This document shows, piece by piece, positions 12,846-50,500 of a stretch of DNA of 64,000 bases. The translations under genes and the position numbers were made by a program. This DNA comes from Cheilinus undulatus (Eukaryota > Chordata > Actinopteri > Labriformes > Labridae), in contig NC_054877.1 in the NCBI RefSeq assembly GCF_018320785.1, forward strand, positions 22,798,329-22,862,328. The letters run 5' to 3'. A model generated the notes under the pieces. That model saw only the letters and a list, made by a program, of their open reading frames with translations, was not told where the DNA came from and did no database searches. Each line of letters starts with the position of its first letter. Position 1 is the first letter of the stretch.

Positions 12846-13912
12846 TGTGGAAGCCCATTTTTGCCACGTAAAAAATAAATGACACCTAGGTAAGTATAGA
12901 ATTAAAAATTTTAAGTTGGGTCAATGAGAAAGTAAGTCAATATTGTGAGATGAAAGTCAAAAATAATGAGATAAGCAGTCAAAATTATGGGAAATAAGTC
13001 ACAGTTATGAGAAATAAAGTAATAATCAAAGTGTAAGTCATAATTAAGAGATTAGTCAAAAAAAATGTTTATCTCATAATTCAGTTATCTTTTAATTCTG
13101 ACATAACCATTTCATAATTTTGTCTTTTTATCTCATAATTTTGACTTATTTTCTCATAATTATGACTTATTGTCTCATACTTGTGCCTTTTTCTCATGAT
13201 TATGATCTACTTTCTTAAATTTATATTCTATCTCATTATTTTTAACTCTTAATTTCAATATCACAAATAAATATCTCATAAATTTGACTTTTTATCTCAG
13301 AATTTTGACTTACTTTCTCATACTTTTAACTATTGATCACATTACTATGATTAACAGTAATATAATTGTGTCTCTTTCTCGTAATATTGTGTTTTATCTC
13401 AAAATGTTGACTGTACTGCCTGTTATCTCATTATTATGACTTAATCCTCATATTTACCTTAAGTCTCATAACCATGACTAACTTTCTCAATTTTGACTCT
13501 TTATCTCATTATTATAACCAACAAAAAGCAGAATTTTGACTTATATCCTTTTATTCTGACTTTTTATCTTATCATTACAACTATTTATCTATAGTTATGA
13601 TGTAATATCTCATATTTTTGACTTTGTGTCAAATTATCACGACTTACTATCTCATAATTATAGCTTCTATATATTTTACTATGACTTATTACCGAATTAT
13701 TCCAACTTTTTGTCCCATACTTTTGACTTTATCTCATTGTCACGACTTTTATCTCATGATTATGAGCAGAATTTCTACTCTCTATTTCATAATTGCGACT
13801 TTTTGTCTCATCATACTGAATAATTACTATCTAATAATAATATCTAATAATTTCGACTTGAGATATATTTTATTATATGTATTTTCCGTACATCCTTTTT
13901 TTATTTTTATTA

Positions 13913-13944
<32 letters not shown>

Positions 13945-13974
13945 ATTTTATTTTATTTTTTGAGGGGCTCCGTA
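12846..13974. mobile_element. Long foldback element with inverted arrays of a TCATAATTATGA-type unit
   Basis: The left end TGTGGAAGCCC and right end GGGGCTCCGTA are rough inverted copies. From about 12925 to 13070 the units read like AAGTCAAAATTATGAGAT. From about 13070 to 13880 they run in the opposite sense (TCTCATAATTTTGACTT). The RNA or single strand could therefore fold on itself. The unit core is close to the palindrome TCATAATTATGA. Units are very degenerate, so the element is old. The ends resemble those of the 33850-34276 element, suggesting one family. Confidence 0.6.
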
Positions 13975-14119
13975 GAAATTGACTTCCATATTTATTAACT
14001 GTTACAAGAAAAAATACATTTATTTCAAATAATGAGAATTGCCCTTCCGAACCGAAGGGTGTCGCTGTAAACATTGAGTGTTAATTACAGCCAACAAGCA
14101 CAGAAGAAGAACTTTAAAG

Positions 14120-33719: not shown

Positions 33720-34978
33720 TGTAATAACATTGCAGAAAAATTAAAGAACTGTAAAGTTAATCTTTAAGCAGATGATGCAACAATATATTCCTCAGCACCC
33801 TCACAAAGTCAAGCTGTATCTCGGTTACAGTCTGATTCCAATGCATTCCTACGGAAGAGTATTAGGGCCACTGAAAAAAAAAATTGAGACGAATTTTTTT
33901 TTCACTCGTGAGAAAAAAGTCAGAATTCTGAGATTAAAGTCAGAATTCTGAGTTTAAACTCAGAATTCTGAGATTAAAGTCAGAATTCTGAGAAAAAGTC
34001 AGAATTCTGAGATTAAAGTCAGAATTCTGAGAAAAAAGTCAGAATTCTGAGTTTAATCTCAGAAGTCTGAAAAAAAATTTGAAACTTTTTTTTCATTTGA
34101 AGAATAAAGTCAGAATTCTGAGATTAAAGTCAGAATTCTGACTTTTTTCTCAGAATTCTGACTTTTTTCTCAGAATTCTGACTTTAATCTCAGAATTCTG
34201 ACTTTTTTCTCACAAGTGAAAAAAAAAATTTCGTCTCAAAATTTTTTTTTTTCAGTGGCCCCAATACTCTTCCGTACATTCCAGCAAGCTCTAACTGATC
34301 CTAAACTAATACTAACCCCAACAAGACAATGTATATACAGTATGATTTTCTCAAAGCAGAGCACTGACCATCTTGATGCCACCTTGTATACATTATGTAA
34401 TGTAAAAACTGAATGTGTTCAATAATTTGAGTATTGGGTATATGGATCTGTCTTTTAGGTCACATCTCACATTTAATGTAGGCCGGCTCTAGTTAAGTCA
34501 GCATAGAAAGCAGCACAGTATTCTGTTTATTTACAGAGCACTCATTGGTAAACTCCATCTTAAATGGCTTCTCTCCTGTCCATAAACATCTCAACCTGTA
34601 CAACCAGATCTCAGAGCTGGATCACTTAAAAAAAAAAGCCAAGGTTTAGAACTGACTGGGGTAGGACTGCTTTAATATGGATGCAGCCATTATGTGGAAT
34701 AATTTCCAATCGACTGTCAAACTGCCCCCTCTGGTATCATGTGGCATTTTAAAGAGGCTGTGTCTGAATCATACAAGGAAGTTGATTGCAACTGCTTTAA
34801 AATATGATTTATTAACCAGGGTATCGGTTTACAATGATACTATTGTAATTACCTTAACAATGTTATACATGTTTTTCTTATTATGTCTTTTATTTTTTTG
34901 CTACAGGGCAGCCCTGGAAAAGAGACCTTGGTCTCAGTGGGTATCTCTGCTAAAACAAAGGATAAATAAAATATAGGT
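33720..34978 (+). mobile_element. Old LINE 3' region with reverse transcriptase relics, split by a foldback element
   Basis: At 33770-33849 the text reads ADDATIYSSAPSQSQAV.., the YADD box region of a LINE reverse transcriptase (Tyr codon now a stop). It resumes after the insert as FQQALTDPKLILTPTR. Downstream, 34680-34975 contains an end such as ALEKRPWSQWVSLLKQ and an ATAAATAAAATA tail, as in L2/Rex1-like fish LINEs. Many breaks; the exact clade is uncertain. Confidence 0.65.
33850..34276. mobile_element. Foldback element made of TCAGAATTCTGA units, clean 6-bp target duplication
   Basis: Ends TACGGAAGAGTATTAGGGCC and GGCCCCAATACTCTTCCGTA are near-perfect inverted copies. CATTCC stands directly outside both ends (33844-33849 and 34277-34282). 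The arms are arrays of about 20-bp units (AGTCAGAATTCTGAGATTAA), in opposite sense in the two halves. Each unit has the 12-bp perfect palindrome TCAGAATTCTGA. No coding capacity. Confidence 0.8.
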
Positions 34979-47500: not shown

Positions 47501-50500
47501 TACTGTAAGTAGATCCAGTATCTGCTCTAGCTGACTCACTCCACCCTCATTCTTCAGGTGTTCCTCGAGTACGGTTTCCATCCTCGCGTGCAGCGCTGGG
47601 TCATCGGTCAGTGTTTGTGCACTGAGCCGAGGTCGCTGGCCTCCTATGGGGTGCAGAAGGACGGCGATACGGCATACCTCTACCTGATATCTGCCCGACA
47701 GGCCCGCATTACCCGCCAGCTGTTCCAGCAGGACCTGGAGAGCGCCTTCCTTGCTCCACCCCTCCCACCAGGCAACGGCCCCACCTCCCAAGACTGGAGG
47801 GGCTACAATACTCTGCCTTCAAGGCTCATCCATAACAAACAGGGTGAGCTTTACAAATGTAACTATTCTGTGAAAAAGTGCAGATGAAAAGTGTGGGAAT
47901 TAAGATACTAGATACCTGGTGATGTATGTGAGCTTCGGAGACTTCAGTCTTTTGCATAAATGAATGCAAAAGATTCGCCGCTTAGTTTTAAATTCCAGTT
48001 TCAAAATATTTATTTGCTAAATCTCTTACAAACAATGTGATGATTTGCAAAGCAATGAAACCCCATAACACACTGGAAATAGAACAAAAACAACATATTA
48101 CATTTTTAAACTGACACCATGTCTCTGTTTTTGGAAATGTATACACTCAATTTGAATTTGATGCTGACAACATGTTTCAAAAAAGTCTGGACAGCAGCAA
48201 CAAAGATTAGAAAAGTTGTCAAATGCTAAAAAAAAAAAAAAACACAGGATTGAGCACCTTACAGTGAGTTTTCAAACACATGTACTTCAGTATGGAGTTG
48301 GTCACCCTTTTGCTGCTGTAACAGCCTCCACTCTTCTTGGAAGACTTTCCACAGCAATGTGCCCATTGCTTCTGTAGAGCATTTATGAGATCAGGCACCA
48401 GTGTTGGACATGAAGACCTGGCTCACAATCTCCAACTAATTCATCCCAAAGGTGCTCAGTGGGGTTGAATGCGAGGCTTTGTGAGGGCCAGTCAAGTTCT
48501 TCCACACCAACCTCATCGAACCATGTCTTTATAGTCCTTGCTTTGTGCACTGGGGCACAGTCATGTTGGAATAGAAAAGAGCCTTCCCCAAACTGTTGCC
48601 ACAAAGTTGGAAGCATAGCAGTGTCCGAAATGTGTCGGTACGATGAAGCATTAAGATTGTCCTTCACTGGAGGTAAGGGGCCTAGCCCAGACTCTGAAAA
48701 ACAGCCCCATATCATTTTCCCTCCTCCACCAAATTTCATAGTTGACATAATGCAGCCAGGCAGGGAACGTTCTCCCAGCATCCACCAAACCCAGACTCAC
48801 CCATCTGACTAACAAACAGAGAAGTGTGATTCATCATGCCACAGAACATGTTTTCTCTGCTCCACAGTCCAGTGTCTGTGTTCTTTAAACCACTCCATCT
48901 GACCCTTAGCATTGAATTTGGTGATGTGAGGCTTGCATACAGCTGTGAGGCCATGGAAACACATTCATGGGACTCCTGCTTCATGGCTAAGCTGCTGTTG
49001 CTCCTAAACGCTTCAACTTTCTAATAACATCACTCACAGTTGACTGTGGGATATCCAGCATGGATGAAATTTCACAAACTGTTTTATTGCATCCATCACA
49101 GCACCACGTTTTAAGTCACTGAACACTACAGAACAATCCATTTTGTATCACTAATGTTTGCAAATGGAGACTGCATGGCTAGGGGCTTGATTTTATACAT
49201 CTGTAGCAATGAGTCTGATCGACACACCCGAGTTCAATAATTAACAAGTGTGGCCATATACCTTTGTCCATATTGTAGTATGGATAGTGTAGTCCAATAC
49301 ATCCATTTTTACTTTCTATAAGTTAATTTAAGAAAATGCACGTTTTTGATCTTCTGGATGGATTATTAATGGTCTGTATTTACAGCAGAGCAAGGATTTA
49401 TCAATGTGTGATCAAGCTTGGCTTTTAATGAAAGAGAAGGAGAGTGCTCATGATGGGCTCAGGAACACTTTAAAAAGGGGGCATACCTACACATGGCATT
49501 GGGGTCCCGCACAATGCTGACAGGAACCACCAATACCAAGTGATACATAGGTTTTGGAGCAATATGCTTCCAAATGGTCAACATTCTGCAAATATTACAC
49601 CAGCATGGCTATTCTCTATTAAAAATGAGGTTTCAGTGTTTTGCAAAGCATCACGTTGTTTATTTATTTACATTTAATACAAAGTCCCAACTCATTTGAA
49701 TTTGGGCTTGTAAATTAAAGGGTTTAAGTCAAGTTCATGTTATCCTTTAAGCCTAAAACTGTTGTAATTTCCAAACCAGCAAAACATATACTTCTGCTGC
49801 ATTCAAAACCCTTTTTTCTCTGTGATTCATAACTTTTTTATAGTAACGAGGTCTGACTTTTTAATATCAATAACCTTTCTAAAGTTCTCAATCTTTGTAA
49901 TATTGTAACTTTTCATAATATTGTTTAAAACATTTACAAAACTTCCATTCTCTAATACTATCCCATTTTAATCCAAACTCTAGTCCTTGCAGTTATTCAA
50001 GTACAGCATGAATACCAGACTCCTTACAAATACCAAATTCAATGTAGAGAAAAGAAGGTTTAAAAACTGTCTTTTTTGTGAACTTTAGGGAGCCCAAGTG
50101 GTGGAGCCGACAGAACGGGTGACGTCAAAGATGTTCTTGACATTGAGAATCTGCAGCTGAATGATCACAGCAACAAAGCCAGTAAAACACAGGTATGCCA
50201 GAAGTCTGATGGGTTATGAAAGAGGGACACAAAAAGTAATCTGATTGATTTCAGAAGAAATTTAGCTTTTGCCAGTCTAACACAAAGAAGGCAAGCATGC
50301 AGTGTGCTGAATCAAAGCTGACAATTTGCCTCTGGCATCTCAATACTCTGTTTTCCCAGTGAGAGAGGATAGGAGTCAACTGCCAAGTTATGCTAGAAAT
50401 TTATACTCTTAAAAAACAGTTTTTGCCTATATTCTGAAAATTGCATTTTTCTTCAGAGCTGTTCAAAATGATTTATTTCTTTTCTTGTTTTTAGATAATG

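Follow-up and report, generated by a model that had tools for sequence, protein, structure and literature searches.

A 427-bp element lying within a LINE of the fish Cheilinus undulatus, with inverted arms that are filled with small palindromes, is with good probability (about 0.83) a copy of a non-autonomous, MITE-like foldback family of DNA transposons of the IS3EU kind. Repeat-filled foldback ends are tied to Mutator and Galileo elements in those parts of the literature that were available to us. Here this architecture appears on elements with the hallmarks of IS3EU, and integrase-type elements whose ends bear the same signature are present in the genome as well. Hundreds of tip matches, a single 20-bp unit and anywhere from 0 to 26 units per copy make the family a natural series on how palindromes are gained, kept up and lost in an animal genome. 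The same series bears on whether repeats in transposon ends aid movement, and the family supplies a concrete candidate for the type of transposase.

Anatomy of the element and its LINE target

The window, which is the whole 64,000-nucleotide stretch of DNA that was analysed, contains the element and its surroundings in the following arrangement (window coordinates; features without a direction are marked as unstranded).

33756..34467, + strand: interrupted LINE reverse-transcriptase fragment (the query stretch, insert excluded; the LINE may reach further)
33844..33849, unstranded: left target-site duplication CATTCC, from flank comparison
33850..34276, unstranded: whole foldback element, 427 bp
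33850..33883, + strand: left outer terminal inverted repeat, TACGGAAGAGTATTAGGGCCACTG followed by an A run, 97% complementary to 34243-34276
33872..33919, + strand: left subterminal A/T-rich module, TGA-A10-TTGAGACGAA-T9-CA..GTGAG, hairpin-like in itself
33920..34070, + strand: left array of 8 palindromic units, seven perfect TCAGAATTCTGA and one TCAGAAGTCTGA, centres 19-20 bp apart
34071..34109, + strand: central module, which repeats the subterminal module in degenerate form
34110..34201, unstranded: right array of 5 perfect palindromic units, the final three reversed in sense
34202..34259, - strand: right subterminal module
34243..34276, - strand: right outer terminal inverted repeat, terminus CTTCCGTA
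34277..34282, unstranded: right target-site duplication CATTCC, from flank comparison

The element begins with TACGGAAG (33850-33857) and finishes with CTTCCGTA (34269-34276); the exact tips of the family are TACGGAAGAGTATTRGGGCCACTG, and its ends, written as an element-search pattern, are TACGGAAGAGTATTRGGGCC. The outer inverted repeats (34 bp, 97% complementary) are longer than 30 bp, as in fungal IS3EU elements, and the subterminal module is inverted too. Inward of these come 13 palindromic units, 12 of them perfect copies of TCAGAATTCTGA and one TCAGAAGTCTGA, with centres 20 bp apart in 10 of 12 intervals, 19 bp apart in one, and 51 bp apart at the centre of the element. Most of the element consists of its inverted arms, filled with tandem repeats, which is the foldback architecture. 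Chance is excluded as the origin of the palindromes, since 13 perfect 12-bp palindromes are present against a mean of 0.29, and a maximum of 4, in 1000 shuffles. Folded as a single strand, nearly end to end, the element reaches -183 kcal/mol (mean of 100 shuffles, -51). The original prediction of a foldback element made of small palindromes and bounded by inverted tips is borne out by these properties, and the sequence suggests that the element may extrude cruciforms.

What fills the central gap is the A/T-rich module known from beside the tips, present there as a third and degenerate copy: the alignment of the two modules scores 42.5, with 22.5 the largest score reached by shuffled sequence. 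The units of the two arms had been said to face in opposite senses. Unit sense runs >>o>>>>? in the left array and >x<<< in the right, so that the opposition holds for the most part and breaks down for two of the five right-arm units, which are symmetric or in the left sense. The window's two longest perfect palindromes (32 bp at 33940-33971 and 20 bp at 34126-34145) coincide with the symmetric units, o and x, where unit sense changes.

The CATTCC flanks match exactly over 6 bp and do not match at 4, 5, 7, 8 or 9 bp, which upholds the claim of a genuine target-site duplication; removing the element together with one CATTCC restores the LINE frame ..SDSNAFQQALTD.. just as had been foreseen. The flanks, joined with one CATTCC, also served as the query for a search in which 40 of 65 candidates were scored. 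Among these 40 listed matches, 37 cross the junction in one alignment, one lies beside it and two are the halves in the window itself (three of the 37 alignments were read). The LINE is therefore found uninterrupted at the insertion point, as was anticipated. The window's own LINE fragment retrieved no reverse-transcriptase family in Pfam and no solved structure in PDB, and a piece of one relative (L080) had no Pfam match; a piece of another, uninterrupted relative (L081) matches Pfam RVT_1 at 4.3e-9. This match and the junction-crossing relatives make the LINE reading right: the target is a fragment of a LINE reverse transcriptase.

The family across the genome

In the genome (1.17 Gb in 46 contigs) the 24-bp tip has 637 matches with at most one mismatch, both ends being counted, and its reversed control has none; the tips are shared by other copies, as predicted. 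A similarity search with the window element produced 1313 candidates, 40 of which were scored. The first set assembled for analysis consists of 39 listed stretches, one tandem-array neighbour and the window copy, making 41 loci, every one of them tip-paired (one, L018, has two candidate left tips, and the outer pair was taken). Six of the loci, all tandem duplicates of a single C12 insertion, were left out of the counts, so that 35 independent copies remained. The C12 array (C12:37784004-37811908) has a period of ~4.6 kb and carries seven element copies with an identical or nearly identical left flank, GAGCAAATC; these are apparently one insertion that was multiplied afterwards.

Within the first set, 6-bp duplications are exact in 21 of 35 copies and have at most one mismatch in 28, the other seven having at least two. 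Exact duplications of 3, 4, 5, 7, 8 or 9 bp occur in none of the 35, and shuffled partners give exact 6-bp duplications 0.73 times on average and 5 times at most. The first 100 of the 637 tip matches comprise 27 close pairs (158-713 bp), one pair spanning 10,458 bp and 44 unpaired tips, 20 of which were read; 16 of these have a partner within 900 bp and form the second set, in which the 6-bp duplication is exact in 13 copies and has no more than one mismatch in 14. Both sets combined, the duplication is exact at 6 bp in 34 of 51 copies and at no other tested length, and the expectation that other copies would carry it has held. Four copies (L062, L064, L065 and L076) have one intact tip, with no other within 900 bp, and end inside palindrome arrays. 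Runs of G or C stand at the outer edge of the element, without a duplication, in L052, L056 (near base 126) and L064.

Over 70 ends, from copies picked for their similarity and for tips that differ at no more than 7 of 28 positions, the first five bases are T in 69, A in 69, C or T in 69, G in 65 and G in 69. Most copies share one plan (tip, A/T-rich module, palindrome array, central module, opposite array, module, tip), and the central module could be aligned in 32 of the 35 independent copies. Array length differs widely among copies and between arms, with perfect units numbering from 0 to 26 in a copy. There are 508 units in the 35 copies, 429 of them perfect, and their spacing within a copy is 20 bp in 394 of 473 intervals and 21 bp in 31. 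Divergence from the consensus is 1.6% in the core, and the spacers are 2.3% away from the nearest main type, estimates that are biased low since the copies of the first set are the best matches. No compensatory change within the palindrome was found in the 508 units. The copies read span 154-718 bp, and no transposase was seen in them; the smallest (L071, 154 bp) has no perfect unit, its left tip is intact, and its duplication shows a single mismatch.

IS3EU as the likely source of the transposase

IS3EU families are described as having TA..TA termini and, usually, 6-bp target-site duplications (PMC10045372), and fungal IS3EU elements as having TAYGG..CCRTA ends, terminal inverted repeats longer than 30 bp and 6-bp duplications (PMC12730594). 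The available portions of two further papers have IS3EU annotated in zebrafish (PMC4746887) and contained in killifish genomes (PMC12763893). The window tips, TACGG..CCGTA, fit the TAYGG..CCRTA formula, and the duplication is exactly 6 bp in 21 of 35 and 13 of 16 copies. At the level of superfamily, IS3EU is the likely source of the transposase, a type that is recognised but has been studied little, and we infer that a transposase of this type moves the family in trans. With IS3EU (and GingerRoot) the family has in common the TA..TA termini, the TAYGG..CCRTA ends and the 6-bp duplications, and this genome contains integrase-type elements with such ends. It differs from IS3EU as described in that the copies seen are without transposase and have arms that are arrays of palindromic units. 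Tandem repeats have been linked to IS3EU in oyster (CgiSat35 and CgiSat47; PMC8268682) and, in part, in the case of beetle TCAST10; foldback or palindrome-built IS3EU elements are not mentioned in the accessible parts of IS3EU descriptions or in the listed titles of papers naming IS3EU. Other papers drawn on are PMC3706591, PMC4079207, PMC5844308 and PMC8869645.

The genome holds integrase-type elements that have the window element's end signature, its duplication length and repeat-filled ends. They came to light through the Pfam profile rva_4, which we take to be an integrase core; it has 62 matches in this genome and none in any of 14 control genomes. Ten loci were returned from the 62 matches, and five of these form one family, 94.6-99.6% identical. 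Two members could be walked to both ends (C6:26789059-26801603, 12,545 bp, and C21:33101707-33114211, 12,505 bp), and three further loci of the family are 94.6-98.2% identical over the available stretch. Both walked elements start with TATGGGAGGCCATTTAGG (first bases TATGGGAGGCCATT) and finish with its complement, the ends being TATGG..CCATA, and both are flanked by 6-bp duplications, CTTCTG/CTTCTG on C6 and CTTTTT/CTTTTT on C21. A 183-residue segment of one element matches rva_4 at 2.7e-81; it also matches rve, at 2.7e-4, which falls short of Pfam's cut-off. The C6 copy has inverted ends of ~900 bp that are 95.8% alike and contain 83-bp tandem repeats. It is in the TATGG..CCATA ends, the 6-bp duplications and the repeat-filled ends that these 12.5-kb elements resemble the window element; they are likened to IS3EU by ends and duplication length, and the Pfam match marks their protein as integrase-type.

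The first 14 tip bases of the window element and of the 12.5-kb element have TAYGGRAGNNNATT in common and then diverge (after TAYGGRAG), and palindromes of at least 10 bp are absent from the outermost 1,300 bp at both ends of the 12.5-kb element. The 24-bp tip of the window family is absent from the ten rva_4 loci over ~1,500 bp on each side of the match (the best has 9 mismatches), and no transposase element with the family's own 24-bp tips was found among the first 100 of the 637 tip matches. The 10,458-bp tip pair, which is on C4, was considered as an autonomous element and rejected: it has no duplication and only one stop-free frame of at least 120 residues (130 aa). These points, together with the seven of 35 copies whose duplication has at least two mismatches, weigh against the IS3EU reading.

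The window contains, in addition, an older A/T-rich foldback relative at 12846-13990, with tips TGTGGAAG and CTTCCATA. The motif TAYGGRAGNNNATT, shared by the window element's tips and those of the 12.5-kb element, recurs at the right end of this relative, whose left tip departs from it by one base; the similarity of its tips to those of the window element exceeds that in all 1000 shuffles. Only 4 of 6 positions are the same in the two flanks of the relative, CTTATC and TTTATT. Its interior has 33 same-sense matches to a 20-21-bp unit, TATCTCATAATTWTGACTTTT, of the TCATAATTATGA type (shuffle mean 3, largest 8).

In the mechanism that we propose, a DDE transposase of the integrase type, produced from another place in the genome, would bind the inverted ends, excise the element and insert it at a target cut with a 6-bp stagger; repair of the gaps would then yield the 6-bp duplication. 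That a different superfamily moves the element (Dada, the hAT6 branch of hAT, or a Polinton-type integrase) is quite improbable. Such candidates are suggested by their duplications, which are given as 6-7 bp for Dada of fish, as 6 bp for certain families of hAT (PMC12730594) and as 6 bp for Polintons (PMC10045372). The end reported for IS3EU, TAYGG..CCRTA (PMC12730594), speaks against all of them. Dada was the first candidate, for its 6-bp duplications, and was dropped because Dada-U6 and Dada-U1 are described, in the text available, without terminal inverted repeats and as inserting into specific RNA genes, whereas the inverted repeats of the present family are long and the window copy sits within a LINE. 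The tips of hAT elements are of the form YARNG and those of Polintons are AG..CT. Neither rule fits TACGG, and the third base, which YARNG would have as a purine, is C in 64, T in 5 and A in one of the 70 ends. An 8-10 bp duplication of the Mutator/FB type can also be set aside, exact matches of 8 or 9 bp being found in 0 of 35 copies. That the element is an artefact of assembly or an inverted repeat formed by chance, for which nothing speaks beyond the general knowledge that long hairpins are hard to assemble, is scarcely credible in the face of 637 tip matches against none in the control and of 34 exact 6-bp duplications among 51 copies in two sets.

Angel-type inverted-repeat elements of teleosts are, like the window element, short and fold into hairpins. 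Among foldback systems, Galileo is a P-type element and FB a Mutator-type element. Both can be grouped with Tm1 and Tetris as foldback transposons having tandem repeats in their ends. Tetris shares with the window family long inverted repeats that contain tandem repeats, the number of units varying among copies; it differs in its 8-10 bp duplications, its ~220-bp units and its assignment by its authors to Mutator, in contrast to the 6-bp duplication and the 20-bp unit with a palindromic core here. A stem-loop amplification model for short hairpin elements of the Angel kind is attributed to Izsvak et al. (PMC8268682).

The role of the palindromic units

The arrays may simply be a by-product of copying: tandem repeats that replication slippage and hairpin strand-switching have generated and on which movement does not depend. 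We favour this reading, at somewhat better than even odds, over one of selected binding sites, because compensatory change is absent from 508 units, a copy without a perfect unit exists (L071) and the ends of the 12.5-kb element lack palindromes of at least 10 bp. The high variability of array length by copy and by arm, and the coincidence of sense changes with symmetric units in the window copy, are in keeping with it. The 20-bp units, each around a 12-bp palindrome, would expand and contract by slippage, unequal exchange and hairpin strand-switching, and the longest palindromes sit where the unit flanks turn symmetric, as would be expected after a turn-around at a palindrome. Against a by-product stand the common plan, with its central module in 32 of 35 copies, and the very regular period; common descent alone could account for both.

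A binding role is possible, and on the whole doubtful. The units would, on that account, be putative twofold-symmetric sites for the transposase or a host protein, two helical turns (20-21 bp) apart, with longer arrays raising mobility. Their regular spacing (20 bp in 394 of 473 intervals, 21 bp in 31), the perfection of 429 of 508 units and the lower variability of core than spacers (1.6% against 2.3%) are all consistent with this, as is the presence of palindrome-like units, likewise spaced 20-21 bp, in the older relative; the Tetris paper, in the part available, has the end repeats of Galileo holding extra transposase binding sites. The absence of compensatory change argues the other way, as do the 12.5-kb element with no such palindromes near its ends and L071, with zero perfect units and yet an intact left tip and a duplication with a single mismatch. 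In the older relative one palindrome column reads 13 A, 13 T and 7 others (n=33), which also counts against a binding role. A more ambitious proposal, that IS3EU-type elements in this lineage repeatedly evolve foldback ends filled with short tandem repeats, that in the present family the repeat turned into a self-palindromic 20-bp unit, that its arrays turn around at palindromes when copied and serve the integrase-type transposase as phased docking sites of twofold symmetry, and that hairpin chemistry and binding would jointly drive the family, is speculative and strikes us as unlikely.

Searches beyond this genome add some minor observations. Six tip and unit strings of 13-16 letters, sought in the main texts of papers, occur in two of them, both on streptococci; the family may have an entry in Repbase or Dfam. 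Collections of viral and prokaryote sequence were scanned for tips and units: three viral patterns gave no match, and one viral and four prokaryote matches were obtained. The prokaryote matches (L002-L005) were rejected as relatives, since they look like unrelated bacterial palindromes; one of them (L005, 5400-5520) is a Streptomyces contig with three GGGTCAGAATTCTGACCC palindromes that bear no relation to the element. Within the window, on the - strand at 48383-48781, there is also a transposase remnant that matches Pfam DDE_3 at 1.5e-05, below Pfam's cut-off, and that we take to be Tc1/mariner-like.
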